DNA of 57,548 bases from Spartobacteria bacterium. GTDB taxonomy: Bacteria > Verrucomicrobiota > Verrucomicrobiia > Chthoniobacterales > UBA10450. Shown piece after piece: positions 3,151 to 57,548 of this stretch. The stretch covers positions 1-57,548 of the forward strand of contig PNAA01000011.1 in NCBI GenBank assembly GCA_003169975.1, written 5' to 3'. Each line of letters opens with the position of its first letter. Position 1 is the stretch's first letter. The notes under the pieces were generated by a model. It had not been told where the DNA came from. It made no database searches and saw only the letters and a list, made by a program, of their open reading frames with translations. The position numbers were made by a program, and so were the translations under genes.

Positions 3151-6100
3151 ATGGACGCCATTAATTTAATTACCCAGTCGATGATCGACGCCTTTGTGCG
3201 AGCGGAGCCGCGCCGCGCCCAAGAGATCATCCCCGAACTTGTCTATAATCTCATCTGCGCGGCAGACCAGAAACCGACGAACCTAATCTTTCCGTTAGGC
3301 GATAGCGTTGGACAACACGGCCCCGATGGAATTCTGACACCGTCGACCGCTTTCCCGCCCTTTTTCCCCGCCTTCACCAGCTATTGGCAGGTAGGAACCG
3401 ATTTGGATCCTGGCGATAAGGCGACCAGGGATTATAAGGCGCTCACCAAAAACGTTTCGGAGGACACCCGACAGCAGAGCGCGTTCATATTCGTTACCCC
3501 GCTGTCCGGAGTCAGAAATACATGGGTGGAAAAAGCAAAGGACAAGTGGATTAAGAAACGACAAGACCAACAGGCGTGGCTCGAAATACGCGTGATCGAC
3601 GGCACGCAGCTCATCAATTGGATGCAGAAGTTCCCCGGTGTTGACCGCTGGCTGGCGCTTCAGATGGATGAATATCGGCCTGGTCTACGGACAGTGTCTC
3701 AGCATTGGGCAGGCATCGAAAAGATCGGCGACCCGCCGCCCCTAAAGACAAATCTTTTCCTCAAAGGGCGAGACAATGCGGCCTCACAACTGCAATCAAT
3801 TCTCCAAGGAGAAACGTCTTCTTTAGAGCTTCGCATCGAAACGAGAGATCCCGACGATTTTCTGGACTTCGTGTCAGCCGTGTGTGCGTCGATTCCGGCA
3901 GAACAGATAGCCCACCTCGCCGGTCGCTGCATCATCGTGGAAAATGAAGAATGCTGGCGTTGGATAACAACCAGAAAAACGCCTCACGTCTTGATTGTCG
4001 CGCCGAACTTGTCGTTGGGAAACAATTGGCAAAATTTGTTTCCTCTCGCGAAAGAGAATAAGCACACAGTAATCTATGCGGCATTGCCCGGCGGAGTTCC
4101 GAACTGGAACAGCATCCTTCTGCCGGGACCTAGCGCGACAGATATCGAAACGTGCTTGCGCGAAATCGGCTATTCCGAAGAGCGGGCAAGACGGCTGTCT
4201 ACGCGTTGCGGTCAGAGCCTTCAGGAACTGAAGTTGTGGATTCAAAATCTGTCCACTTTTCCCGAGTGGACACAGGGATCTTCGGGAGCCGAACTGCGGC
4301 TAGCCACCGTCATCGGTAGTTGGAGGAGCGATAGTGTAGGAGATCGGGAAGCAATTGAGGCTTTCTTGGGAAAATCTTACGGGGAGTGGATCACGAATCT
4401 GATTCCAGTAGCGGCCCGCGTTGACGCTCCCCTGAAAAACAACGGTGAGGTTTGGGGCTTTACATCCCGTTTTCGCGCTTGGCAGGCATTGGGCAAACAA
4501 ATCACCGACGAAGACCTTGAAAAATTTCAGATGCTCGCGACAACTGTTCTTTCAGAGCGCGATCCACAGTTCGAATTAGAACCCGAGGATCGCATGTTCG
4601 CGCGCATGCGTGGCAAGGTTGGGAAGTATTCGGCAACTCTTCGCGAAGGAATCGCTAACACATTGGCGCTTCTCGGTAGTTACCCCGCAGCTCTCTCGGC
4701 ATGTACTCCGGGAAAACCTGAAGTGATCGCTGTTTTGACGCTGCGCAAAATTCTTGAGAATGCTGACTGGATACAGTGGGCCAGCTTGAATGACGTTTTG
4801 CCATTACTAGCAGAAGCCGCACCTGACGAATTATTGGATGCTTTAGAGTCTGTCTTGAAGCAACCAAGCGAAAGCGTCTTTCCCAGTGTGTTCGCCCAGG
4901 AACGTTCAGCAATCGAAGGCAGAAACTACATGACCGGGTTGTTGTGGGGATTAGAAACGCTTGCGTGGCACGAGGATTACCTGATTCGCGTCGCTGTAAT
5001 CCTAGGACAGCTCGCTGAGATAGATCCCGGCGGAAATTGGACAAATCGTCCGCTAAATTCAATCACGACCATTTTGCTACCGTGGTTTCCTCAAACTTGT
5101 GCTCCCGTATCGAAGCGAAAGTCGGCAGTTGAGGCAGTAATTGAAGAAAGTCCCGAGATAGGAGGGAAGCTCCTCTTAACTCTCCTGCCAAGCGGTCACG
5201 GAATTTCGAGTGGTAGCCGTAAACCAGCCTGGCGAGAGTTCATTCCGTCTGACTATTCGAACAAAGTAACAACAAAGGCATATTGGGATGAGATTGGTGG
5301 CTACGCCGAGCTTGCCGTTCGAACTGCCGCCGCTGACCTTGGCAAACTTAGAAGCCTAATCGAGCGACTTCCTGATCTTCCGGCGCCAGCCCACACTGAG
5401 ATCCTCAAACACCTTTCATCTGAAATAGTTCTTAAGCTTCCCGACTCGGAGCGATCACCCCTGTGGGAGGCCTTGGTATCGCTGGCCTCAAAGCACCGAA
5501 AATTTCCGGACGCCAAATGGGTCATGGAAAACCACAGCATTGAGAGAATCGAAGAAGTGGCACAGTTGCTTCGTCCAAGTTCACCGCATTTCTATCATCG
5601 TCGTCTTTTCGGTGCCAGAGATTTCGAACTTATGGACGCCAGCGCCGATTACGAAGAACAGCGCCGACAACTAGAGGTACGCAGGCAAGAGGCAATCTCC
5701 GAAATTTTTCGCCAATCGAACATTGAAGGAGTCCTTGAGTTTACAAAGACTGTCTCAGCCCCATGGCAAGTGGGGTTGGCGTTCGGCGCGATTGGTCCGC
5801 AGGAAGTCGATGCTGAGTTATTGCCCAAACATCTTGCTATAGAAGATAAAACGATAGCCCAGTTCATGGGTGGTTTCGTCTGGGCCCGGTTTTGGAAGAG
5901 CAAGTGGGAATGGGTTGATCGAGTCATAACGCAAGATTGGAATTTGGATCAAAAAACTTCGTTCCTCTTGTTGCTTCCTTTTGAACGAGAAACTTGGAAA
6001 CGGGTCGATTCATTTCTTGTCGACAGGGCCTCAACATACTGGAAACAAGCAAATGCCAATCCCTATCAGGGCAAGGATGATTTGGGCGAAGCTGTGGAAC

Positions 6101-6960
6101 GGTTGCTCGAACACGATCGACCTCGCGCCGCAATTCAATGTTTGGAAACATTGGTTCTTCAAAAGGGCAGCGTTGCGCCAACTCTTGTTTCTCGCGCCCT
6201 TATAGCAAATTTGAACTCCGAAGAGCCGACAAACGCATTTGATCGACATGCGGTGATCGAATTAATAAAATGGCTTCAAGGCAATGGTGAGACTGATCCG
6301 AAAGATTTGTTTAAAGTGGAGTGGGCCTACTTAGCACTACTCGATCGATTTTCGGGCAGTTCACCAAAACATCTCGAGAAGCAGTTGGCGGAAGATCCAA
6401 GCTTCTTTTGCGAAATTATTCGCACGATTTTCAAATCGAAGAGGGAAGATGTACCCGTGGAAGCGCCGACGGAAGAAAAGAAGCGAATTGCGGAAAACGC
6501 GTATCGCCTCTTGCACCAATGGCAAACGCCTCCTGGAACTACTCAAGGGGCCGAATTCGATGTTTCAGCGTTCAATAAATGGCTTGCCGTTGTTAAGAAA
6601 TCCTCCACTGAGTCAGGTCACTTCGGTATTGCTATGAGCCAAGTCGGGCAAGTTCTTCCGTACGCGCCCCCGGACTCTACGGGTCTATGGATTCAGAAGG
6701 CGGTTGCCGAAGCACTCAACGCTAAAGACGCTGAGGAAATGCGATCTGGTTTTACAACGGAACTGTTCAACATGCGTGGGGTTCATGGCTTCTCGGGTGG
6801 CACAGACGAAACGGAGCTTTCGAAGCAGTACCGCGAAAGAGCAAACGCACTTGACGACGCCAACTTTCATCGATTCGCAACTTCGATTCGAGAGTTGGCT
6901 GTCGGATATGAGCGCGATGCGAAACGAGAAGCCGCGAGAAATCCGTTTGAGGACCTTTGA
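3151..6960 (+). CDS. Large putative defence protein: nuclease-like N-terminus, degenerate NTPase-like middle, helical tail
   Basis: A single-gene ORF of 1269 residues with more A/T-rich codon use than its neighbours. Residues about 30-175 carry D51, D59-G60, W79-Q80-V-G-T-D, K90 and Y95, then an F-V-T-P-L motif and W-L-E-I-R-V-I-D-G-T-Q-L. This order of D, E/Q and K resembles PD-(D/E)xK restriction-type folds, with Q in the usual E position. Residues about 200-400 begin F-L-K-G-R-D, like the start of a STAND-type NTPase, but no G-x4-GK-[ST] Walker A is present. From about 420 to the end the protein is helical and repeat-like (HEAT/TPR type). The build recalls AVAST-like single-protein sensors, but I cannot name a family. 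It stands alone, flanked by REP palindromes and an unrelated small gene. Real gene: very likely; function: inference. Confidence 0.8.
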   Translation: MDAINLITQSMIDAFVRAEPRRAQEIIPELVYNLICAADQKPTNLIFPLGDSVGQHGPDGILTPSTAFPPFFPAFTSYWQVGTDLDPGDKATRDYKALTKNVSEDTRQQSAFIFVTPLSGVRNTWVEKAKDKWIKKRQDQQAWLEIRVIDGTQLINWMQKFPGVDRWLALQMDEYRPGLRTVSQHWAGIEKIGDPPPLKTNLFLKGRDNAASQLQSILQGETSSLELRIETRDPDDFLDFVSAVCASIPAEQIAHLAGRCIIVENEECWRWITTRKTPHVLIVAPNLSLGNNWQNLFPLAKENKHTVIYAALPGGVPNWNSILLPGPSATDIETCLREIGYSEERARRLSTRCGQSLQELKLWIQNLSTFPEWTQGSSGAELRLATVIGSWRSDSVGDREAIEAFLGKSYGEWITNLIPVAARVDAPLKNNGEVWGFTSRFRAWQALGKQITDEDLEKFQMLATTVLSERDPQFELEPEDRMFARMRGKVGKYSATLREGIANTLALLGSYPAALSACTPGKPEVIAVLTLRKILENADWIQWASLNDVLPLLAEAAPDELLDALESVLKQPSESVFPSVFAQERSAIEGRNYMTGLLWGLETLAWHEDYLIRVAVILGQLAEIDPGGNWTNRPLNSITTILLPWFPQTCAPVSKRKSAVEAVIEESPEIGGKLLLTLLPSGHGISSGSRKPAWREFIPSDYSNKVTTKAYWDEIGGYAELAVRTAAADLGKLRSLIERLPDLPAPAHTEILKHLSSEIVLKLPDSERSPLWEALVSLASKHRKFPDAKWVMENHSIERIEEVAQLLRPSSPHFYHRRLFGARDFELMDASADYEEQRRQLEVRRQEAISEIFRQSNIEGVLEFTKTVSAPWQVGLAFGAIGPQEVDAELLPKHLAIEDKTIAQFMGGFVWARFWKSKWEWVDRVITQDWNLDQKTSFLLLLPFERETWKRVDSFLVDRASTYWKQANANPYQGKDDLGEAVERLLEHDRPRAAIQCLETLVLQKGSVAPTLVSRALIANLNSEEPTNAFDRHAVIELIKWLQGNGETDPKDLFKVEWAYLALLDRFSGSSPKHLEKQLAEDPSFFCEIIRTIFKSKREDVPVEAPTEEKKRIAENAYRLLHQWQTPPGTTQGAEFDVSAFNKWLAVVKKSSTESGHFGIAMSQVGQVLPYAPPDSTGLWIQKAVAEALNAKDAEEMRSGFTTELFNMRGVHGFSGGTDETELSKQYRERANALDDANFHRFATSIRELAVGYERDAKREAARNPFEDL

Positions 6961-6970
6961 TTCTGATGAC

Positions 6971-7195
6971 CTAAGCGGAAACTTCACTACTTCCTTTGAT
7001 AAAATCATCGCCGGTTAAAGTACTCGATCCAAACGCGACGTCATATGTCGGACCGGCCCGTTTCTGTGCGGCGCGAGCTTCGGTCTCGTTAGTGTAAAAC
7101 CCGAAAAGGTGCCAGGGCTCCAAACGGTAAACCGCCCAGCCAATCACACGGTTGCCATTGACAGGATCTCTGGGAAAATTAGATAGGTCGATCAC
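6971..7195 (-). CDS. Small conserved-looking hypothetical protein
   Basis: About 74 residues if started at the GTG at 7195 (V-I-D-L-S-N-F-P). The frame stays open upstream into the dehydrogenase gene, but that extension is arginine-rich shadow sequence. The central part (W-H-L-F-G-F-Y-T-N-E-T-E-A-R-A-A-Q, then Y-D-V-A-F-G) reads like a compact alpha/beta domain of the kind annotated as a stand-alone hypothetical. It lies just downstream of the dehydrogenase on the same strand and faces the end of the large defence-like gene. No Shine-Dalgarno is evident and the function is unknown. Confidence 0.5.
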   Translation of the reverse strand: MIDLSNFPRDPVNGNRVIGWAVYRLEPWHLFGFYTNETEARAAQKRAGPTYDVAFGSSTLTGDDFIKGSSEVSA

Positions 7196-7230
7196 TTCGC
7201 TGGCCGGAAAAGAAGATATCGATCTGCCGA

Positions 7231-8388
7231 TTACGAGCTGGCGTAATCGGCGATGGCTTTGGCTACGTCGAGCGTTGAGTCTTTCCCACCCATATCGTAG
7301 GTGCGCACTTTGCCTTCCGCGATGACGCGGGCAACGGCGGTTTCCAAACGCGTGGCCATGTCGGTTTCTTTGAGCCAATCGAGCATCAGTTTGGCGGTCA
7401 GGAGCATGGCGATGGGATTGACCTTGTATTGACCGGCATATTTCGGCGCTGAGCCGTGCGTCGGTTCGAACACGGCGTATTTGTCACCGAGGTTGGCGCT
7501 GGGTGCGAAGCCGAGTCCGCCGACCAGGCCGGCGCAGAGATCGCTCACGATGTCGCCAAACATATTCTCCGCGACGAGCACCGAATAGTCCTGCGGATTC
7601 TTAAACATCCACATGCAGATGGCGTCGATGTTCGCGTCGTCGGCCCGGATGTCGGGGTAGCTTTTCGCTACTTCTTTGAAACAACGCATCATCAGGCCGC
7701 CGGTTTCGCGAAGCACATTTGGTTTTTCGATTAGCGTGACGCGCTTGCGTCCGGTGTTTTTGGCGAACTCAAAGGCCTGTTTGCAGATGTTCGTGCAACC
7801 CTGCTTGCTCATGATGCGAGTGGAGAGCGCGATATTATCGAGGCCGGCTTTCTCTTTCCACGGCTTCATTTTCGGGTTGGCGCAGAGCGCGGTGTAGACC
7901 GACTCGGGCAGCGGGAAAAACTCGACGCCGCCGTACATGCCTTCGGTGTTTTCACGAAACACGACCTGATCGATCGCGACATCTTCGCCGCTCGGGTTGG
8001 TGATCCTGGTGCCGCGATAATTGAGCGGATTACCGAGGTAGCTTTTACAGGGCCGCATGTTGGTGTGCAGGTTAAACATCTGGCGCAGCTTCACGATGGG
8101 CGAGAAGTAAACCAGCCCCTTGTCTTTCAATTCTGGGATTAGTTCATTCTTGGCTTCGCTTTGCGGCTTGCTCGTGATCGCGCCGAAAAGACCGCAGGTG
8201 GTTTCCTTGAGTGCCGCGACCGTGCGATCCGGCAGGGCGTTGCCTTCCTTGCACCAAAAGTCCCAGCCGATGTCGCACGGCACATATTCGGCATCAAGTT
8301 GCAGGCGATCGAGAACGATCCGCGCCGCCTCCATGACATCATTGCCGACTCCGTCACCAGGCATCCACCCGATTTTGTATTTTGACAT
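7231..8388 (-). CDS. Isocitrate/homoisocitrate-type NAD(P)-dependent decarboxylating dehydrogenase
   Basis: A protein of 385 residues of the isocitrate/isopropylmalate dehydrogenase family. It starts with the G-D-G-V-G nucleotide-fold motif, contains F-R-E-N-T-E-G-M-Y-G-G and carries the family signature N-M-F-G-D-I-V-S-D-L-C-A-G-L-V-G-G-L-G-F. The C-terminal half has E-P-T-H-G-S-A-P-K-Y-A-G, the cofactor loop. Such proteins oxidatively decarboxylate isocitrate to 2-oxoglutarate, or homoisocitrate in lysine synthesis. Nearby aconitase and ATP-citrate lyase genes on the same strand favour isocitrate. The sequence alone does not settle substrate or NAD versus NADP. The start ATG is followed by S-K-Y-K-I-G-W-M-P-G-D-G, as expected for the family. 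Confidence 0.88.
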   Translation of the reverse strand: MSKYKIGWMPGDGVGNDVMEAARIVLDRLQLDAEYVPCDIGWDFWCKEGNALPDRTVAALKETTCGLFGAITSKPQSEAKNELIPELKDKGLVYFSPIVKLRQMFNLHTNMRPCKSYLGNPLNYRGTRITNPSGEDVAIDQVVFRENTEGMYGGVEFFPLPESVYTALCANPKMKPWKEKAGLDNIALSTRIMSKQGCTNICKQAFEFAKNTGRKRVTLIEKPNVLRETGGLMMRCFKEVAKSYPDIRADDANIDAICMWMFKNPQDYSVLVAENMFGDIVSDLCAGLVGGLGFAPSANLGDKYAVFEPTHGSAPKYAGQYKVNPIAMLLTAKLMLDWLKETDMATRLETAVARVIAEGKVRTYDMGGKDSTLDVAKAIADYASS

Positions 8389-8504
8389 TTGATCGCGACT
8401 TTATCGACGAGCGTCGCCACCCGCAAGTCCCGGCCGCCCGGTTCATCAGTTGCTGGCTTCGCACGGTGAGGCAGCGAAGAATGTTGATGGTTGAGGGTTG
8501 ATAG

Positions 8505-8738
8505 TTGATAATCGAAGCCGTGGATGCAGTTCTGCCATTGGATCGCATGACGGTGGAAGAGAAGCTCAAAGCCATGGAAATGCTTTGGGACGATCTATGT
8601 CGGAACGAGGGGAAAATTCCGGTGGCCGATTGGCAGAAGGAAATGCTCGACGAGCGGCAACGACAGATCGAGGCGGGGGAAGCAAAATTCTCCGATTGGG
8701 AGTCGGCGAAGAAGCGAATCCGCCAGCGGACCTCGTGA
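8505..8738 (+). CDS. Addiction-module antitoxin component
   Basis: A small protein of up to 77 residues. The motif E-K-L-K-A-M-E-M-L-W-D-D-L is typical of the 'putative addiction module component' antitoxin family paired with RelE/ParE toxins. The start is uncertain: TTG at 8505, GTG at 8520 and ATG at 8547 are all in frame; the family usually has about a dozen residues before this motif, so 8505 or 8520 is more likely. The stop overlaps the toxin start as GTGA (8735-8738), typical of toxin-antitoxin pairs. The pair is inserted on the opposite strand between the dehydrogenase and aconitase genes. Confidence 0.75.
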   Translation: MIIEAVDAVLPLDRMTVEEKLKAMEMLWDDLCRNEGKIPVADWQKEMLDERQRQIEAGEAKFSDWESAKKRIRQRTS

Positions 8739-9028
8739 CGATTGAGATTCTGGACAAGGCGGAGGACGACCTTGTCAGTGGATTCTCATTCTATGAGTCG
8801 CGACAAGCTGGCCTCGGCGCTTACTTTCGGGAGAGTTTGAGTTCCGACATCGAATCGCTTCGGATTCATGGGGGAATTCATCGCATCGTCTACCGGAATT
8901 ATCATCGCGCGCTGAGCCGCCGATTCCCCTTTGCGATCTTTTACACGGTTTCTGGCGCGACGGTCTTCATTCACGGAGTCGTTGATTGCCGGCGCAGGCC
9001 AGCGTGGATCAAGGAACGTCTGAAGTAG
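8735..9028 (+). CDS. RelE/ParE-family toxin
   Basis: A protein of 97 residues started at the GTG overlapping the antitoxin stop. It begins V-T-I-E-I-L-D-K-A-E-D-D-L and contains G-G-I-H-R-I-V-Y-R-N-Y-H-R-A-L, R-R-F-P-F-A-I-F-Y-T-V and a final V-V-D-C-R-R-R-P-A-W-I: the order of the ParE/RelE plasmid-stabilisation fold. The reading frame is open far upstream but overlaps the antitoxin gene and is not coding there. It would act on gyrase (ParE-like) or ribosome-bound mRNA (RelE-like); the sequence does not decide which. Confidence 0.8.
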   Translation: MTIEILDKAEDDLVSGFSFYESRQAGLGAYFRESLSSDIESLRIHGGIHRIVYRNYHRALSRRFPFAIFYTVSGATVFIHGVVDCRRRPAWIKERLK

Positions 9029-9081
9029 CAGGGTCCTGCCCGCGTGCGGCCGACGCACTACGATCAATATCAGACGGCTTC

Positions 9082-11058
9082 TTACGGCTTCGCGCGAAGC
9101 CGTGCGGCCACCAGATTTTCGGCGCCGCCGGCCACAATCAATTCCTGCGCCGCTGGACTGAGCGGCGGGAAGGTAAATAATTTTCCGTCGATCGTCAGGA
9201 CGGATTTGCCGTAGCCGATCGTGATCTCGGAGGACACCGTGGTGGGCGTACGATTGGTGAGAGTAGCGCGCAGGTGCTCCACCAACTCTGGGCACTCAAA
9301 GACGACGAACCCGTTGTTAAAGGCGTTGCGCTTGTAGGTCTCGGAAAAACTCGCGGCAATGACGCAGGGAATGCCTTTGAACTTGAGCGCGGTCGCGGCC
9401 TGCTCGCGGCTCGAGCCGGTGCCGAAGTTCAATCCGCCCACCACGACATCGCCCTTTTGATACAGCGTGTTGAAGTTGGGATCGTAATTTTCAAAAGTCA
9501 CCGCCGCTATCTGCTCCGGCGTCATGTCGTCGCGATAAGTGTGCTTGCCGGCGTAAATCCCGTCGGTATTCAGATTGTCCTTATCAACAAAGAGGACGCG
9601 ACCGGTCACGCTCGGCGGGAAGCCATCGATGATTTCGACCGAAACATCCGCCTGCGGTTTGCTTTGCGCGCGCCGGATGGCGGTGCCCGCCGGGCGCTCC
9701 GCAAATTCTTGCGGCGCACAAATGAATCCGGCGAGGGCACTCGCCGCCACCACGGCCGGCGAACCCAAATAGACCTGCGCATCGGGATCGCCCATCCGGC
9801 CTTTGAAATTTCGATTCGTGGCGCTGATCGCGATCTCCCCTTTGCCCACGAGTCCGCGGCCCAGGCCGATGCACGTTCCGCAACCGGGGGGCAGGGGAAT
9901 CGCGCCCGCATCCACCAAAGTTTGCCAATCACCGACTGATTCGGCTTTCGCCTGCACCTCGGCGCTCGCCGCGGCTAGATAAAATTCTACGCCGTCGGCC
10001 ACGCGCTTTTTGCTAGCGCGCACCACTTCGGCGGCGTCATGCAAATCCTCCACGCGCGCGTTCACGCATGACAACAAATACGCCTTCTGAATCGCCACGT
10101 GCTTGCGCTGCATTTCCGGGAGCGAGACCATCGTCTTCACTTCGTTAGGCCCAGAGACGTGCGGAACCACGGTCGCAAGATCCAGCTCCAGCTCGATCGC
10201 ATAGGCCGCGTCCGCATCCGCGCTGAGGTTGGCGCGATCGTGCCACCACGCATCGATCTCGGCGTTGCTGTAGCCGGAGCGACTCTTGGCACCGCGCGTT
10301 CCCGGCCGGCCGGGGTTGCTGAACGCGTCGACCCGCGAGCGCAGATATTTCACCGTCATTTCGTCGAACGGAAACACCCCGGCGAGCGCGCCCCACTCGG
10401 TCGTCATGTTGGCGATCGTCATCCGCGCATCCATCGAAAAAGCCGCGATGCCGTCGCCCACGAATTCGACCGCGTGATTCAGCACCTCGTCTTTATTGAA
10501 GAGCCCGCACAACGCGATGATCACATCCTTGCCGGTCACGCCGGGGAAAAGTTTTCCTTTCAACACCACCTTGGCCACCTTTGGCACCTGCCACCACGTC
10601 ACCCCGGTGGCCCAGATGCTGGCCGCATCCGTTCGCACGACCGGCGTGCCTAACGCCGCGACCGCGCCATACAAATTCGAGTGCGAATCGCTGGCCACGA
10701 CCAACGCCCCGGGAACGACATAGCCTTGTTCCACCATCACCTGATGCGAAATGCCGGTGCCGGGCGGGTAATAATCAACGCCTTGCTCGCGGCCGAATGC
10801 TTCGATCTTCGCGTACTTCTCCAGGTTCTTCGGCGTGACATTTTGGATATCGTGATCGATCGCGAAAACCGGCTGGCCCGGATCCAAGATCGCGGTCGCG
10901 CCGATCTGCTTGAACTTCGGCATGACTGCGGCGGTGTTGTCGTGCGTCATGACATGGCGCGGCCGGATCGAAACAAAATCCCCCGCGTGCACCACCGCAC
11001 CGGGAGCGAGCCCATCCGCATGCCGCGCAGCAATTTTTTCAACGAGCGTAAGACCCAT
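9082..11058 (-). CDS. Aconitase/homoaconitase family hydratase
   Basis: A protein of 658 residues with both halves of the aconitase superfamily: the [4Fe-4S] hydratase part (about 1-470) and the swivel domain (about 490-658). The three cluster cysteines are C331 (L-L-S-C-V-N-A-R) and C393/C396 (P-P-G-C-G-T-C-I-G-L-G). The swivel loop is G-T-G-S-S-R-E-Q-A. D-S-H-S-N at about 124-128 is a substrate-site motif. Its length is that of single-chain mitochondrial/bacterial aconitases and fungal-type homoaconitases. With a neighbouring dehydrogenase and citrate lyase, citrate-isocitrate isomerisation is the likely job. The VapBC genes lie directly upstream on the same strand. Confidence 0.88.
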   Translation of the reverse strand: MGLTLVEKIAARHADGLAPGAVVHAGDFVSIRPRHVMTHDNTAAVMPKFKQIGATAILDPGQPVFAIDHDIQNVTPKNLEKYAKIEAFGREQGVDYYPPGTGISHQVMVEQGYVVPGALVVASDSHSNLYGAVAALGTPVVRTDAASIWATGVTWWQVPKVAKVVLKGKLFPGVTGKDVIIALCGLFNKDEVLNHAVEFVGDGIAAFSMDARMTIANMTTEWGALAGVFPFDEMTVKYLRSRVDAFSNPGRPGTRGAKSRSGYSNAEIDAWWHDRANLSADADAAYAIELELDLATVVPHVSGPNEVKTMVSLPEMQRKHVAIQKAYLLSCVNARVEDLHDAAEVVRASKKRVADGVEFYLAAASAEVQAKAESVGDWQTLVDAGAIPLPPGCGTCIGLGRGLVGKGEIAISATNRNFKGRMGDPDAQVYLGSPAVVAASALAGFICAPQEFAERPAGTAIRRAQSKPQADVSVEIIDGFPPSVTGRVLFVDKDNLNTDGIYAGKHTYRDDMTPEQIAAVTFENYDPNFNTLYQKGDVVVGGLNFGTGSSREQAATALKFKGIPCVIAASFSETYKRNAFNNGFVVFECPELVEHLRATLTNRTPTTVSSEITIGYGKSVLTIDGKLFTFPPLSPAAQELIVAGGAENLVAARLRAKP

Positions 11059-51494: not shown

Positions 51495-51864
51495 ATGCGG
51501 CAACGCTAGCTAAGGGGGGACGGGCGAATGGGTCGCGACATTTCATTGAACACCGGCCGCCCGGAAGGGCGGCCTTGAGCATGCGCCACGCGCTGCTCCA
51601 GTAGAGCGCCCTGGGCGTCCCGTCAGCGTTGCGCTTCGCGCTTCGGAAAAGTGGAGCCGACAGCGGCGTCCCGCCCGGGACCGAGCCGATTTATTCCTCG
51701 AGCGCGGCGGCAGCGAGCGGATGGACTGGGAAGGAAGCGGCTGATTCGTAATCGGAATTTGATTTTCTCGCCGATATTTGCTCAAATCGCCTAACGTTTG
51801 CTCACCTGGGCAAACAGGCGGTGTGGACGCAAATCGAAAACCGGTTGGGCGAGCCCACTCCTGC

Positions 51865-53232
51865 TCAAATGTGCCTAAAAAACGGCCTCGGGGATACAAA
51901 CAGGGGATACAATTTGGCGTTTAGGCCCTTGGGGGAAGGCCCTGCACCCCAAAAGCCTACCGAGGGTTCGAATCCCTCCCTCACCGCCACTCGTCCCAAC
52001 GCGACAGGAAGCGTCAGCATGCGACCATTTGCCTTATTATCAGCGAGTTCCATCGCTTGATTCCCTTCGCTCCTCGCGTCAGCTTGCGACAAATTCTGCC
52101 CTGCCGCGTCTGCAATCTGTGCGCGTATTTGTGTATCGTCGAAAAGGCGCGGTAGTCCCTTGACGGCGTCGTAAATGGGTAGCTGCGACTCATCGGTGTA
52201 AACCTTGGACGTCAATCTAATGTCGCTGTGGCGAAGCAGCTTCATCGCGAAACGCTGCGCTATGCCATGTCTCTGTAGGAACGTAGCCCAAGTGTAACGC
52301 AGCGCGTGGAAATCCGCATATCTCCCCGACCCATCGCAATAAGCAATCCCGTTGCGTTCAGAATCTCGCCGCAATCGCCGAGCCTGCGGTACTCCATTTT
52401 GAAACACCAAGTCCGACGGCGAATAATTGACGGGCCGATGCGCCTTCAACGCCTCGGCTATTTCTGGAACGAGCGGCACATGCTCCTCTTTCTTGTTCTT
52501 CGCACAAATGACACGAACGCGCACATGTGGCACCTTTTCGTCGAATCGAAGATCGTCCCAAATCAGTTGTCGAAGTTCCTCGTGCCGTAATCCAGTGCGC
52601 GCCGCCGCGAGATAAACAATCCCGCGAGGGCCAGAACCAGCGATCAATCCTCGCAATTCCTCATCAGTGAACGCTCGCCGCACTCGCTTTGACTGTCCGC
52701 GCTCGTCAATTTTCGGTACGAATTTCAAGGGATTGCCCTTGATTCGTCCCACCCGTTCCAGCCAGTTCAGGAATGAAACCATTGCTTGCAGATAGTGATT
52801 CAGCGTCCGGGCTGAATTCTTTTGCCCGCTTCTCCATCCAATAAATGAATCCGCGTTGACGTTATAAGCCACATTCCAATTGCATGCCTTGAGCAGCGTG
52901 CAGACCCGCATCTTGAGTTGGCGCCCACCTCTTCCATTGCGCCCCGCACGATTTCGTTTTTCCAAATCTGCGAGGTAGTCCTCCAGATGTGCGGCCAGCG
53001 GCCTCATTGCAGCATTCCGAATCACTTTCGGTTCCAGGATGCCCGCAGCTTCTCGTTCCTTTTCCTGAATGAATTCGCGTGCTCTCTTATCAGCGACCTG
53101 CCTGTCCGTCACGCCAAGGGCTTTCCAGCGGTCCACAGGCATTTCCCCCACCCGATAGCGCACGTAATAACAGCGCGTCAGACGGAGAACTCCATTCTTA
53201 CGGAAACGCCGCTTTTCGACCTTAAAGATCAT
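51865..53232 (-). CDS. Tyrosine recombinase (integrase) reading through its attachment site
   Basis: A protein of 455 residues. N-terminal arm- and core-binding parts to about 185, then the catalytic set R216 (A-R-T-G-L-R-H-E-E-L), K in A-K-N-K-K-E-E at about 244-250, H309/R312 (F-H-A-L-R-Y-T-W), H335 (L-L-R-H-S-D-I) and Y345. The fold ends near 365. The last 45 residues (with A-V-R-E-G-F-E-P-S-V-G-F) are the antisense translation of a tRNA 3' end, so the gene runs through the att core. It overlaps the HTH gene by 11 bases. It marks the edge of a genomic island. Confidence 0.92.
   Translation of the reverse strand: MIFKVEKRRFRKNGVLRLTRCYYVRYRVGEMPVDRWKALGVTDRQVADKRAREFIQEKEREAAGILEPKVIRNAAMRPLAAHLEDYLADLEKRNRAGRNGRGGRQLKMRVCTLLKACNWNVAYNVNADSFIGWRSGQKNSARTLNHYLQAMVSFLNWLERVGRIKGNPLKFVPKIDERGQSKRVRRAFTDEELRGLIAGSGPRGIVYLAAARTGLRHEELRQLIWDDLRFDEKVPHVRVRVICAKNKKEEHVPLVPEIAEALKAHRPVNYSPSDLVFQNGVPQARRLRRDSERNGIAYCDGSGRYADFHALRYTWATFLQRHGIAQRFAMKLLRHSDIRLTSKVYTDESQLPIYDAVKGLPRLFDDTQIRAQIADAAGQNLSQADARSEGNQAMELADNKANGRMLTLPVALGRVAVREGFEPSVGFWGAGPSPKGLNAKLYPLFVSPRPFFRHI
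51961..51989 (+). other. tRNA-Ser-like 3' end fragment (putative att core)
   Basis: The bases include T-stem GAGGG, loop TTCGAAT, CCCTC, acceptor strand CCTCACC, G and CCA. This is the 3' end of a tRNA, most like tRNA-Ser. The matching 5' acceptor GGTGAGG is absent from the preceding 150 bases. A fragment left by site-specific integration. Confidence 0.75.
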
Positions 53233-53419
53233 TGCTTCTCCTGTTGATGATTTTGTTCACTTCACTCTCTCGAAAACAGACATTCCGACGGACTTTGATT
53301 CGCGTCAGATGGCCATCGATCACCTCTCGCTCCACCGTTTTTATGGAGCAGCCGAGTCGATCCGCCACTTCCCACTTCCGCAGCAGTTTGTCGTTGAAAT
53401 GTGATCCTGCGTCTTCCAT
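53222..53419 (-). CDS. Excisionase/AlpA-like HTH protein
   Basis: A protein of 65 residues with one helix-turn-helix of the MerR/excisionase type: L-L-R-K-W-E-V-A-D-R-L-G-C-S-I-K-T-V-E-R, then a basic tail. It overlaps the integrase start by 11 bases. Such small proteins direct excision or regulate the integrase of mobile islands. Confidence 0.8.
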   Translation of the reverse strand: MEDAGSHFNDKLLRKWEVADRLGCSIKTVEREVIDGHLTRIKVRRNVCFRESEVNKIINRRSNDL

Positions 53420-53431
53420 CTGAAGCCCTCA

Positions 53432-53785
53432 TTAATCCGGAATCACATCTTCCCAAGACTCGCGCGGGTCACGGTTCTCTTCCGGAATGGCAGCAAGATA
53501 GGCTCGATAAACGGCACTGTGATCAGTTTCAATGCCCCTTTTTGTAAGCCATTCCGCGATCGCTCGGAAAGTGAAACTCTTTTCGAACCGCAGAACATTG
53601 ATCGTCCGAATATGATCGCTAATCAATTTCCGCTTCGGCTCACCTTTTGCCTCCTCCAAGAACGCATCAGGTGCGGGAATCTCCGAATTTGGCGCGCGAG
53701 GACGAGGGAGAGACACAGTTTCACGTTCAGAGGCGGAGATTGAGTCTCCTTTTGGCTTTCTTAGCTTCCGTTTGCGTGTTGGCAT
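53432..53785 (-). CDS. Hypothetical protein with HTH-like region
   Basis: A protein of 117 residues: a basic N-terminus (K-R-K-L-R-K-P-K) and a C-terminal helical region F-T-F-R-A-I-A-E-W-L-T-K-R-G-I-E-T-D-H-S-A-V-Y-R that fits a helix-turn-helix. It is 12 bases upstream of the excisionase-like gene on the same strand, so it is probably part of the integration module. Confidence 0.7.
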   Translation of the reverse strand: MPTRKRKLRKPKGDSISASERETVSLPRPRAPNSEIPAPDAFLEEAKGEPKRKLISDHIRTINVLRFEKSFTFRAIAEWLTKRGIETDHSAVYRAYLAAIPEENRDPRESWEDVIPD

Positions 53786-53930
53786 AAAATAGAACTACAC
53801 GAACAGAACGCCCAAGTCAACAAAACAAAATCTAATAATAAATTTTCAGCCTTCCCAACAATTCCACAGGGAACCACGCAAGCAGCAGATGACAGTAATA
53901 AAAATGTAAGGTTCCGGTAAGAAAATGTCC

Positions 53931-53959
53931 TTGACATCACGGGCCGCATCGAAATAAAA
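53931..53959 (+). promoter_or_regulatory. Sigma70-type promoter for the secreted esterase gene
   Basis: TTGACA (53931-53936), a 17-base spacer and ATAAAA (53954-53959). The ATG is at 53967, only 7 bases after the -10, so transcription would begin at or next to the start codon and the mRNA would be leaderless or nearly so. Confidence 0.55.
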
Positions 53960-53966
53960 CGGCTTC

Positions 53967-55097
53967 ATGAAACAACCCTCCCGGAACAATCTCTCAGAAC
54001 ATCATCTGGCCCATGGCTTTGCCCTTTGGGCGGTGAGTGCGCTGCTCTGTTTCCTGTCCACTTTCTTCGGCTCCACGATAAACTGTCACGCGCAGACGCC
54101 ATCGCCCACGCCGATATGGTCGCCCTCGCCGTGCGTAGGCTGTTCACCGCATGCGACCCCGACGAGACCTCCAACGCCGACTCCGATTCCAGATTATTAT
54201 CAACCTAAAGGTCACGACAGCAACGGAACTGACCAGACAATTTTAGAATGGCGTGTGTTTCCTCCCTCTACCATGCCGACCCCGACTCCGCCCTGGCGCA
54301 ATGTAATAGTCGTACATGAAGGTGGATTTGTAATGGGGGATCCCTTTTCGCCCAACGTCGAGGTCGCGGCAGGAGATCTTGCCGCCGCCAATTACTATGT
54401 TCTCGTTGTCACGCATCGAGAAGCTCCATGCCAGCTTATAACAGGCCAACACTGTCACAACGACACCCCTTTGGGAATCCAATCTGGCCGGCCTCCGCAG
54501 CAGACTAATGACATCAAGGCACTGGTGAATGCGGCGCGGGCTGACATGGCGCACTGCAATGGATTCGTCGCCATTGTCGGCGGATCCTCGGGCGCAACGC
54601 ATGCTATCTGGACCGCCTTGGATCAAACTTCAACTTCGCCTGCAGGCGCTTGGCCGTACTGGAGCAAAGCTTCGCGAGTCAACGCCGCAGCCTGTCTCTC
54701 CGGCGCCTATCTCTTCTCTGACGAAACCCCACAACCCGACTATCGGGTAGACCCTTTGCCGAATTTTAATTCTTTTATTTATAACTACACGAATAGCCTG
54801 GACCTAGACGTTCGCGCGAGCCTATCACCGGTAACGTTATTAACGACCTCGACAGCCGACATCAAGCCTCTATTCATCATTACCAGCGAGTTCGACCCAA
54901 TGCCGCGCAACCAAATCGTGGACATAGGGAACGCGTTACAAACCGCAGGTGTTAATACCTTGTTGTACACGATCAAGCCACCAATCCCCGATAGCAACGA
55001 ACATGCTTTCGCCTACTGGCATAGTCTCGATGGACCGGGCGGCCAATTAGTAAGTGTAGATGTGATCAACTTTCTGAATGCGCAGCCGAACCCATAG
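53967..55097 (+). CDS. Secreted alpha/beta-hydrolase (esterase-like)
   Basis: A protein of 376 residues. Residues 1-43 are a signal peptide (cleavage near C-H-A-Q); a Pro/Thr-rich linker follows to about 76. The hydrolase domain has an oxyanion-type H-E-G-G-F (117-121), nucleophile S207 in G-G-S-S-G-A, D310 (S-E-F-D-P-M-P) and H346 (N-E-H-A-F), a complete catalytic triad. Six cysteines could form disulfides. Substrate unknown. It is the first plus-strand cargo gene of the island, divergent from the integrase module. Confidence 0.82.
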   Translation: MKQPSRNNLSEHHLAHGFALWAVSALLCFLSTFFGSTINCHAQTPSPTPIWSPSPCVGCSPHATPTRPPTPTPIPDYYQPKGHDSNGTDQTILEWRVFPPSTMPTPTPPWRNVIVVHEGGFVMGDPFSPNVEVAAGDLAAANYYVLVVTHREAPCQLITGQHCHNDTPLGIQSGRPPQQTNDIKALVNAARADMAHCNGFVAIVGGSSGATHAIWTALDQTSTSPAGAWPYWSKASRVNAAACLSGAYLFSDETPQPDYRVDPLPNFNSFIYNYTNSLDLDVRASLSPVTLLTTSTADIKPLFIITSEFDPMPRNQIVDIGNALQTAGVNTLLYTIKPPIPDSNEHAFAYWHSLDGPGGQLVSVDVINFLNAQPNP

Positions 55098-55150
55098 TCC
55101 CTGAAGCCGTTAGGCGCGTGTTTGTCCATTCAATCTCGCTAACACATGAA

Positions 55151-56707
55151 ATGAAATCATCTCTCTTTGCCCTTCGATCTCAGGCTGTTGCCTGCTTCTC
55201 TGCTTCTCGCCTGGTTGTTCTAATAATCTTCACTTTTTTGGCTCTCATTCAGGACGTTCGCGCGGATAGCTCCACTTGGCTCCTAAATCCTACCAACGGC
55301 GATTGGAACACAGGGGCTAACTGGAGCGCGGGCACCGTGCCGGGCGATATCGCGACTTTTGATGCCTCTAATATGACAGGTGTCTCAGTATCTGCATTCG
55401 CTCCGATTAATCAGATCGTATTCGATTCGAATGCGAGTCCATTCACGATCACTGTTCTTCCAAACCAGCTCTTGGAAGTGTTAGGCTTAGGAGTAACCAA
55501 TAGTTCGAACAACTCCCAGAACGTCGTTGTGGCGGTCGATAACACGGGCGAAGCGGGAAACTGTTCTTTCTTTTCAGGGACTGTTAGCGGACAGGTTCTG
55601 TTTACGACCGAGGCATCGATCATACCTGGGGGATTGCCCGGTGCAGTCGACTTTGATCTTAGTTCTAGCTCGGGCGATGCCACTTTCCACAACCTGGGCG
55701 GCGCAGTCGGCGGCGCGGTCGGCGGCCGCGCCGATTTTTTTGAGAGCGCAAGCGCGGGCGGAAGCACCGTCGTCAACGAAGGAGCGAGCGCGGCCGGCGG
55801 TATTGGTGGGGGGACCTCTTTTTCGCAAAGTAGGCCAAGCGCAGGCAATGCCACGCTCATTGCCAACGGTGGAGCGAGCGGCGGCGGAGGTGCATTCTTT
55901 CTCTTCGCGGACGGGTCGCTAGGGGCGACGGCGCGGCTGGAGGTTTTCGGCAACGGCTACATGGACATGAGCAGTCATACCGGGCCCAGCTTCTCGATCG
56001 GCTCGATCGAAGGAGATGGTCAGGTCTATCTCGGTAAGACAGCGTTCATGGTAGGCAGCAACAACCTGAGCACGACCTTTTCTGGTGTGCTACATCCCGG
56101 CAACCCGACTGGCGGGGGCGGCACCGGCTCGTTAACAAAGATCGGCACTGGCACGCTCACTCTGAGCGGAGCCAACCTTTACACCGCCGGCACGACCGTT
56201 AGCGCGGGTACGCTGGTTGTGAGCAATACGACGGGCTCGGCAACCGGTACCGGCGCTGTACAAGTCAACGCAGGCACGCTTGGCGGGAGCGGGATCATCT
56301 CCGGGGTGGTCAACGTTGGCACCGGCAGCGGAACGGGAGCATTCCTCGCCCCGGCACATGGGACCAACAAGCAGGTGACTCTCAGCGTCCAAAGCGGGCT
56401 GACGCTCAGGGCGGACGCGACCTATACCTACACTTTCAAAGCCAAAAAGAACAAGGCCAAGACCGACAAAGTCATCGCCAACGGAGTGACGATCAGCGGG
56501 GCAAGCTTTGCCTTCCAAGGCACCGCGCAAGGCGCATTAAAGCGAGGCCTCGTCTTGACCGCGATCAGCAATACGGCGGCGACGCCTATCGCCGGCACCT
56601 TCGCCAACCTACCCGACGGCGCAATCCTGACGGTCAACGGGAACAACTTCCAAGCCAACTACGAAGGCGGCGATGGGAACGATCTCACGTTGACGGTCGT
56701 GCCGTAG
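55151..56707 (+). CDS. Secreted protein with autotransporter-associated beta-strand repeats
   Basis: A protein of 518 residues from the ATG before K-S-S-L-F-A-L-R-S-Q-A, with a signal peptide ending at V-R-A-D; an ATG-less extension of 11 codons upstream is also open. The mature part is beta-rich (W-N-T-G-A-N-W-S near the start) and has the PATR-type repeat L-T-K-I-G-T-G-T-L-T-L-S-G-A-N-x-Y-T-A-G-T-T-V-S-A-G-T-L near 327-356. It ends G-D-G-N-D-L-T-L-T-V without a transporter barrel, which is typical of verrucomicrobial PATR proteins. It may be a surface fibre or adhesin. Confidence 0.82.
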   Translation: MKSSLFALRSQAVACFSASRLVVLIIFTFLALIQDVRADSSTWLLNPTNGDWNTGANWSAGTVPGDIATFDASNMTGVSVSAFAPINQIVFDSNASPFTITVLPNQLLEVLGLGVTNSSNNSQNVVVAVDNTGEAGNCSFFSGTVSGQVLFTTEASIIPGGLPGAVDFDLSSSSGDATFHNLGGAVGGAVGGRADFFESASAGGSTVVNEGASAAGGIGGGTSFSQSRPSAGNATLIANGGASGGGGAFFLFADGSLGATARLEVFGNGYMDMSSHTGPSFSIGSIEGDGQVYLGKTAFMVGSNNLSTTFSGVLHPGNPTGGGGTGSLTKIGTGTLTLSGANLYTAGTTVSAGTLVVSNTTGSATGTGAVQVNAGTLGGSGIISGVVNVGTGSGTGAFLAPAHGTNKQVTLSVQSGLTLRADATYTYTFKAKKNKAKTDKVIANGVTISGASFAFQGTAQGALKRGLVLTAISNTAATPIAGTFANLPDGAILTVNGNNFQANYEGGDGNDLTLTVVP

Positions 56708-56996
56708 GGCAACATCGAATCAGACCCGCTAGGCGGAGGTTGAGACATCTCCGGACATCATCCTGCAAACTCTTGCGAATTCCTGATCTCGCTTGCCAAC
56801 GGCGTTGCTAAGTTGTCGCAGCTTACGATACTCTCTGGTATTTGCTGCATCCGGGCTCCCGCTCGTTTCGTATTATGAAAACAGGTCCATTAGAAGCCAC
56901 ATCATTCTCGGCACGGACCGGCTATTTCTACTATGATTCCCTACAAAGTCAGTGGAAACAACCTCCCATCAAGCCCAAGGCGGCCCGGTTCCATCA
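56708..56996. other. Non-coding stretch before the Rep-side hairpin
   Basis: I see no credible gene. The open frame around 56842 is short and low in coding character. Confidence 0.45.
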
Positions 56997-57024
56997 GCAC
57001 CTTTTGGCATTGCCCAAAAGGTGC
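56997..57024. repeat. 11-bp perfect hairpin next to the Rep gene
   Basis: GCACCTTTTGG (56997-57007), six-base loop, CCAAAAGGTGC (57014-57024). It lies 10 bases beyond the Rep-like gene stop. It could be a terminator or a recognition hairpin for the HUH protein; I cannot tell which. Confidence 0.55.
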
Positions 57025-57034
57025 AGCCAAAAAG

Positions 57035-57517
57035 CTAGGGGGAAACTGTTTGTGAGTTCTCCGAAAGTGAAAAAATTCTAGAGTTCTGCGGGTGCCGGTG
57101 ACTCAAAAGCTTGACGTTCCACCACGTACCTTCTTTGCAAACGTATTTAGCGCAATAATCGGCGACATCATCCCGGCTGTTCACCGGTTCAATCCGATTA
57201 CGACCGTAACGTTCAAACCAAATACGCCAAGTGTGCTGCCGTGATTTATTTTTGCAGTCACACCACAGCGCATGCGCATGAAACCCGTCCCTCCCTGGAT
57301 TCTGTTCGAGCGCGTAAAAATACGAGACTCCGCGCATCTCGTTACGCATGAACTTCTCGTAACAACGCTGGGCGGACCAAATAGAAGCCTCCCATGAAAA
57401 CGTCAGGTGCGAAATTACCTGCCAGGGTGCCAGTGAGTGCACCCAATCCCCCATTTCAATATTGCGTTGAGCGGCCTTGAGCCGCAGATCCGGTTCAATG
57501 TTTCGTGCATTGTTCAT
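57035..57517 (-). CDS. HUH-type rolling-circle replication protein (Rep-like)
   Basis: A protein of 160 residues from the ATG before N-N-A-R-N-I-E-P-D, which has GAGG just upstream; an ATG seven codons earlier is also in frame. The HUH metal motif is H80-A-H82 in D-G-F-H-A-H-A-L-W, and the tyrosine motif is Y121-C-A-K124-Y125 (V-A-D-Y-C-A-K-Y-V). The order fits rolling-circle Rep proteins of small plasmids, integrative elements and microviruses. It is short and has no helicase domain. It is near the window edge, so its neighbours are unknown. Confidence 0.78.
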   Translation of the reverse strand: MNNARNIEPDLRLKAAQRNIEMGDWVHSLAPWQVISHLTFSWEASIWSAQRCYEKFMRNEMRGVSYFYALEQNPGRDGFHAHALWCDCKNKSRQHTWRIWFERYGRNRIEPVNSRDDVADYCAKYVCKEGTWWNVKLLSHRHPQNSRIFSLSENSQTVSP

Positions 57518-57548
57518 TTTGCCTCGAAGCCATCTCATAAATAGTACT

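Follow-up and report, generated by a model that had tools for sequence, protein, structure and literature searches.

The HUH endonuclease gene near the end of the analyzed DNA is most likely the replication initiator of a small integrated mobile element (about 6.4 kb) of Verrucomicrobiota. Judged from its sequence, this would be a rolling-circle element that has integrated, carries cargo and has a replication module resembling that of inoviruses, a reading held with good confidence. The analyzed stretch, here called the window (57,548 nucleotides), is the whole of contig C47 of its own draft genome (G000, 4.47 Mb). All comparisons are drawn from draft metagenome assemblies.

The rep gene and the element of the window

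The predicted HUH endonuclease Rep (160 aa) is encoded on the minus strand at 57035..57517 and matches PF23343 (E = 4e-6). A longer open reading frame (57035-57538, minus strand, 167 aa) starts within the inserted end of an insertion sequence (IS), and the ATG at 57517 is therefore taken as the conserved start. A first-pass annotation had noticed an HUH gene with a perfect hairpin nearby, which is confirmed; its motifs H80-A-H82 and Y121-x-x-K-Y125 are exact when numbered from this ATG. H80-A-H82 and Y121-C-A-K-Y125 are invariant in all three Rep-A homologues, which are 79–94% identical across the three loci. HxH is also present in the Rep types B, C and D of sibling elements, and the type C Rep has one Tyr in the catalytic motif. 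Each of the four types matches PF23343 (REP_ORF2-G2P). The Reps of the window (27.5 bits) and of L003 (Spartobacteria palsa_1395; 27.7 bits) score below the curated cut-off of 27.8, which is exceeded by the Rep of L004 (Limisphaerales bog_1460; 28.7) and the type B Reps (29.3–31.7).

The gene is present in one copy in its own genome. The dN/dS ratios are 0.06–0.13 for Rep-A, 0.05 for Rep-B (the sole pair with correctable synonymous sites) and 0.12–0.16 for ORF112, a 112-aa open reading frame upstream of rep. These ratios indicate strong purifying selection on rep and purifying selection on ORF112; both are functional genes rather than debris. No relatives of Rep-A were found in viral contigs, phages, plasmids or the PDB; its profile has a match in genome G075 (E = 0.007). 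The AlphaFold models of Rep and ORF112 are poor (mean pLDDT of 42 and 45, respectively). Their matches in Foldseek/VIA (ribosomal S24e, permuted S6 and poxvirus RNA polymerase) were taken as a common arrangement only. The listings contain no HUH entry, which excludes nothing.

At the integrase side, the element ends in an att core formed by the 3' end of tRNA-Ser (51961..51986, plus strand), of which 51963-51986 is identical in 24 of 24 positions to G000:C41:846-869. The opposite att site, expected by the first-pass annotation beyond 57.5 kb, is located on contig C41 of the same genome. A genome search with the island end next to the integrase led to C41:755-869, where the 3' end of tRNA-Ser and an end repeat lie together. 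This conserved end repeat (52113..52136, plus strand; ATACACAAATACGCGCACAGAT on the minus strand) recurs at C41:763-785, and L004 and L003 carry it at their ends. It is a candidate arm-type site of the integrase.

The integrase (51865..53232, minus strand) is a tyrosine recombinase (PF00589, 5.7e-19; phrog_1, 1.3e-37). An excisionase-like HTH protein is encoded next to it (53222..53419, minus strand; HTH_17, 9e-5; phrog_66, 2.2e-5); both genes are present in the island of rep, as annotated before. A small HTH-like backbone protein of 117 aa is encoded at 53432..53785 (minus strand; phrog_26158, 7e-4); open reading frames of 145–152 aa resembling it are found at the corresponding position of L004 and L067. 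The cargo consists of a secreted, esterase-like alpha/beta hydrolase (53967..55097, plus strand; Abhydrolase_3, 2.5e-7) and a PATR-containing surface protein (55118..56707, plus strand; PATR, 7e-10). The distal part of the element (G000:C41:22-877) contains ORF112, an origin-like hairpin, an integrase tail and the att site. ORF112 lies at the start of C41 and reads toward the contig end; its counterparts in L003 and L004 are arranged likewise. Accordingly, the gene order between the tRNA-Ser repeats is integrase, xis-like gene, small HTH-like gene, cargo, HUH rep, hairpin, ORF112 and tail.

In an alignment with the homologous L003, which has no IS, window position 57524 falls on base 2848 and C41:22 on the neighboring base 2849. 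The element without the IS would comprise 51963-57524 and C41:22-869, or about 6.41 kb. That rep and integrase belong to one integrative element, as proposed before, and that this element is targeted to a tRNA gene, is borne out by the att site on C41 and by the same arrangement in other genomes. The island does not end before 56.7 kb, and the Rep is not an unrelated neighbor of the integrase. The window element has the integrase and direct repeats of the tRNA 3' end at both ends. An intact tRNA at one end is absent from this copy, where both flanks hold a 3' fragment only and the intact tRNA-Ser(gct) lies in C40; it is present in L067, L070, L072, L080 and L082.

No capsid or helicase gene, for which the first-pass annotation had suggested a search, was found in the element. 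The Pfam scan of seven window ORFs revealed no TraB/FtsK-like or relaxase domain, and C41:1-877 contains no ORF of FtsK/TraB size. ORF112 has no Pfam match, no convincing PHROG match and weak matches in two of 387 genomes. A weak PDB match of ORF112 to the PapF pilin was judged to be a chance result. No extrachromosomal copies were found, and the element had no match in viral, phage and plasmid collections. The peroxiredoxin gene beside the C41 att site was searched for in 39 genomes as a marker of the empty site; in the four regions fetched (three from relatives and one own), none joins both flanks.

Two observations concern the surroundings of the att sites. A 91% identical copy of the peroxiredoxin region C41:1148-1905 is located near the end of contig C39 of G000 (C39:14746-15276; L135) and may reflect either strain mixture or duplication. 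A short ORF beyond the att core of the window (51821-52060, plus strand) reads toward the core and resembles another integrase tail. It is maybe a remnant of a second element at the same site.

Sibling elements and the integrase frame

The window integrase has matches with E ≤ 1e-40 in 14 of 210 genomes of the order. Of the 17 integrase regions fetched, five contain a second tRNA 3' end (distance between the two ends in brackets): tRNA-Gly in L067 (~11.4 kb) and tRNA-Val in L070 (~7.6 kb), L072 (~11.8 kb), L080 (~6.8 kb) and L082 (~4.5 kb). This test covered eight of the 17 regions and additionally L018. No second end was found in L066, L069, L078 and L018, the partner end of the latter being located on C52. 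L068, L071, L073–L077, L079 and L081 were left out due to a close contig or stretch end.

In total, both ends are placed for eight elements (window/C41, C49/C52, L004, L067, L070, L072, L080 and L082), and in each of these an HUH Rep lies beside the end opposite the integrase. The seven further elements are built in the order tRNA end, integrase tail, small ORF (in five of seven), HUH rep, variable cargo, integrase, tRNA. The small ORF between rep and the distal end is present in window/C41, C52, L004, L070, L072 and L080 and was not found in L067 and L082. A regular expression for HUH motifs matched in six of 21 sources; types C and D were found afterwards by eye. Type A Reps are present in the window, L004 and L072 (same contig as L003), type B in C49, L070 and L080, type C in L082 and type D (381 aa) in L067. 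All three Rep-A loci combine rep with att, tail and ORF112. The type A Rep of L072 is 94% identical to that of the window, but its integrase is just 40% identical; thus, modules have been exchanged.

The cargo differs in each element. PADLOC identified a type IIG restriction enzyme in L067 (9e-273), PDC-M28B in L072 (5e-26) and PDC-M48B in L070 (2e-79), and returned nothing for the two cargo genes of the window. The esterase-like and PATR genes, regarded as unusual cargo in the first-pass annotation, are indeed present, but they are only one instance of a variable slot.

Some cargo regions show further features. In L067, a type IIG restriction-methylation enzyme, a DEAD/ResIII-like helicase and a T5orf172 protein form one block (3637-9675), followed by a further integrase fragment in tandem. 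The cargo of L072 (8999-11544; element of G044) pairs a ParA/MinD-like ATPase with TPRs (PDC-M28B) with an uncharacterized protein of 292 aa. In L004, a 212-bp sequence made up of the 3' end of rep and the adjoining DNA beyond it is present twice (6339-6550 and 7898-8109, 95% identical) and flanks two cargo genes, which suggests recombination at the 3' end of rep as the means of cargo exchange.

The 3' end of the integrase gene overlaps the att core. Joining the two ends of the window element extends the reading frame into the tail on C41 and yields a predicted integrase of 492 aa for the circular form; the corresponding lengths are 486 aa (L070), 517 aa (L072), 536 aa (L082) and 502 aa (L067). 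For C49/C52, the in-frame reading is taken from translations and cores and not from a computed join. In L080, the cores differ by two bases and a simple join is out of frame. A comparison of the two sequences suggests that the frame would be maintained only if the exchange falls in the last 11 bases of the core. Differences between seven loci with the A-type tail are mostly at third codon positions (pN 0.06–0.24, pS 0.27–0.73), and the tail is therefore translated at some stage. Of 210 genomes searched with the tail, 11 gave a match, which in several cases lies beside ORF112 or the type B small ORF.

The Islander paper names the integrases of phage Mx8 and SSV as extending across attP (PMC4383910), and thus the principle is not new. 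As in these cases, attP lies within the integrase gene and integration alters the gene. A review from 2021 describes self-disrupting (suicidal) integrases as exclusively archaeal (PMC8371274). Here, unlike in the Mx8, SSV and suicidal integrases as described in these sources, the swap is confined to a conserved C-terminal tail and the catalytic domain stays intact. A tail swapped in this way provides a simple marker at the sequence level by which excised circles can be recognized.

Hairpins and insertion sequence around rep

The perfect 11-bp hairpin (GCACCTTTTGG-CATTGC-CCAAAAGGTGC) at 56997..57024 is located between the convergent cargo and rep genes, 10 bases beyond the rep stop as first annotated. 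It is the sole perfect hairpin of at least 11 bp with a loop of 3–10 nt in the window, compared with a mean of 0.1 hairpins of that class in 20 dinucleotide shuffles. The fold of this DNA region has a z-score of -2.06 on the rep strand. The hairpin was not found in homologous loci, and exact matches occur only in two loci holding the same stretch of the window's own contig. Since it is missing from siblings with 79–94% identical Rep, it is unlikely to be the site of Rep, and the earlier suggestion that it serves as the origin was dropped. Nor is it a clear terminator, since it lies between convergent genes and lacks a T run.

A different, conserved hairpin is located upstream of rep. In the window element it has a 15-bp stem (C41:67-100) between ORF112 and rep, and a long hairpin is present there in all three type A elements (z-scores -3.66, -2.78 and -2.91). 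Its flanks are near-invariant (CGTAACGTGGTCACGCATG before and CCATCCTTGTCCGAGAGGTGTGT after) and have no match in viral contigs. Between C41 and L072, four of the 15 stem pairs are changed on both sides with pairing kept, and one end pair is lost. The stem of L004 is not alignable in register and folds a long stem of its own. This hairpin is the likelier candidate for the double-strand origin and fits this role better than the hairpin past the stop; Rep would presumably nick here. In type B elements (L070 and L080), the small ORF and rep are close or overlapping, and no particular fold is seen in the DNA beyond rep (z about +1).

The window ends in an insertion sequence of the IS4/5 family (57526..57548) with the terminal inverted repeat ATTTATGAGATGGCTTC and the target duplication GA. 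Inverted copies of ATTTATGAGATGGCTTC mark the break between C47 and C41. Of 18 exact copies in the genome, 17 are at most 6 nt from a contig end and one is 211 nt inside, where it runs into the N-terminus of an IS4/5-family transposase (DUF4096, 3e-17). These inverted copies and the adjacent mapping on L003 lead to the conclusion that a single IS copy, itself unassembled, lies between C47 and C41; the latter is a separate contig of the assembly. GAGG and the ATG of rep are kept beside the IS. As the IS parts rep from its upstream region, replication of the window copy may be impaired.

The same IS splits both elements of this genome between small ORF and rep (IS ends at window 57526-57548, G000:C41:6-22, C49:223688-223704 and C52:10543-10559). 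For two hits within 200 bp among about nine insertions, a rough Poisson estimate with a target chosen after seeing the data gives 8e-8 for the whole genome and 6e-6 on the assumption that insertion is possible in only 12% of it. This may reflect selection to silence or rewire rep, or a target preference for replicating DNA. Contig breaks inside the small ORF or rep are also found in the siblings L107 (G024:C46), L110 (G492:C447), L108 (G018:C175) and L074 (G036:C184), which would fit poor assembly of the replication module (through an IS, a multi-copy state or strain variation).

Relation to inoviruses and other integrated elements

The type B Rep profile matches in five of 387 genomes of the phylum and has no match in viral contigs. 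In G172 (3e-17) and G195 (1e-12) these matches adjoin Zot, and the match in G172 additionally lies beside a secretin-like and a small coat-like ORF. In G100, Zot is on another contig; G235 has no Zot. The IMG/VR contig L117 contains Zot (4e-13), a 108-aa ORF and a Rep of this type, in that order. Profile comparison of Rep-B with inovirus Reps gives a probability of 100% (E = 4e-40), and the type B small ORF matches the inovirus small ORF with 92% over 39 residues. Rep-A of the window matches inovirus Reps weakly (65%, 6e-5). ORF112 has no match to the inovirus small ORFs and hardly any to the type B small ORF. An inovirus-type replication module is thus firmly assigned for type B and is probable for type A.

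The elements resemble inoviruses in their size range (PMC6813254) and in a Rep of the PF23343 type that is closely preceded by a small ORF. Integration at tRNA genes or by an integrase occurs in inoviruses (Roux et al. 2019, PMC6813254). Unlike inoviruses, the element lacks the pI/Zot-like ATPase, the gene that defines this group in the same source, and has a cargo slot instead. RS1 and TLC are integrated, rolling-circle-dependent satellites of filamentous phages such as CTXphi (PMC4439123). They are integrated by host Xer in that account, whereas the element uses its own tyrosine integrase at tRNA genes and no helper was found. Plasmids that have integrated and encode a Rep but no capsid are widespread (Kazlauskas et al. 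2019, PMC6668415), and the element resembles integrated HUH-Rep plasmids in being site-specific, bounded by direct repeats and devoid of viral structural genes. The pCRESS Reps of that study have a nuclease-helicase layout; Reps of types A and B (154–215 aa) are too short for a helicase domain. Its main text contains no occurrence of 'Verrucomicrobi'. A published description of such elements in Verrucomicrobiota was not found in a literature search that covered mainly open-access papers. Actinomycete AICEs such as pSAM2 combine an integrase, Xis and a rolling-circle Rep in a tRNA-integrated element. The present elements are alike in having an integrase, an Xis-like gene and Rep at a tRNA, but no FtsK-like translocase was found. 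RepSA matched just one inovirus Rep (E = 0.035).

On this basis, integrase and Xis would release the element in circular form, and in this circle the integrase frame would continue through attP and gain its C-terminal tail. Rep would nick the putative double-strand origin at the hairpin that separates the small ORF from rep, and the circle would then be copied in rolling-circle mode by the polymerase and helicase of the host. The 112-aa protein might plausibly coat the single strand in the role of an SSB. Re-integration at a tRNA 3' end would swap the integrase tail for host sequence, with the cargo occupying a variable slot just downstream of rep.

Since rep and small ORF are inovirus-like and coat and Zot are absent, the element would be one of two things, both narrower forms of the preferred reading: a rolling-circle plasmid that has integrated, or a satellite that depends on a helper. 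The former is favored to a modest degree. Here, Rep would serve copy number or stabilization after excision, and transfer would occur by conjugation or transformation. The widespread integrated Rep plasmids without capsid have the same anatomy (PMC6668415) and siblings carry defense-like cargo genes, but the seven window ORFs scanned include no TraB/FtsK-like or relaxase domain. In a satellite comparable to RS1 and TLC, the single strand made by Rep would be packaged in particles of a helper inovirus and spread the cargo. Consistent with this are the size of ~4.5–11.8 kb, the lack of an own capsid or Zot, and a type B Rep with small upstream ORF that is common to Zot-bearing inovirus prophages of the phylum. 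However, Zot (PF05707) is absent from the own genome and nine other genomes with islands or island ends, and therefore no resident helper is seen in these ten; no packaging signal was identified and the link of Rep-A is weak. Satellite status is thus hypothetical and, for the present, doubtful. More speculative still is a whole satellite family of Verrucomicrobiota that is tRNA-integrated, has kept or borrowed the inovirus replication module, has lost coat and Zot, and spreads exchangeable cargo (type IIG restriction, candidate defense genes, hydrolases) as single strands in helper filamentous particles. The integrase would report its state via attP, the circular form encoding a longer enzyme with a conserved tail that is lost on integration; this full picture is unlikely.

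The window copy might also be a dead remnant, silenced by the IS between ORF112 and rep, with the island fixed in this genome. The position of the IS between origin-like hairpin and rep, repeated in the second element C49/C52, makes this a real though not the favored possibility. Intact rep, ORF112, att and integrase, the dN/dS of 0.06–0.13 across homologues, and the retained GAGG and ATG of rep argue against it. It is very improbable that rep is a transposase-like or REP-associated single-gene HUH element beside an unrelated integrase island, with the hairpin at 57.0 kb as its end. A small HUH protein and an adjacent hairpin would suit such an element, but there is no match to Y1 transposases and the hairpin is not conserved. 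Furthermore, homology spans ORF112 to the common att end with the same integrase order, and the association of rep with att, tail and ORF112 in three of three Rep-A loci contradicts it.

Under the preferred reading of an integrated rolling-circle element, these elements may move passenger genes, including defense-type genes in siblings, among uncultured soil and peat Verrucomicrobiota. The common replication module links capsid-less islands to inoviruses, and a ride on filamentous phages becomes a testable question.

L104 (5299-10539), L105 (9380-15236), L103 and L117 are inovirus-like prophages or contigs, three of them in Verrucomicrobiota. Each has a PF23343 Rep with a small ORF upstream, and Zot is present on the same contig in L104, L105 and L117.
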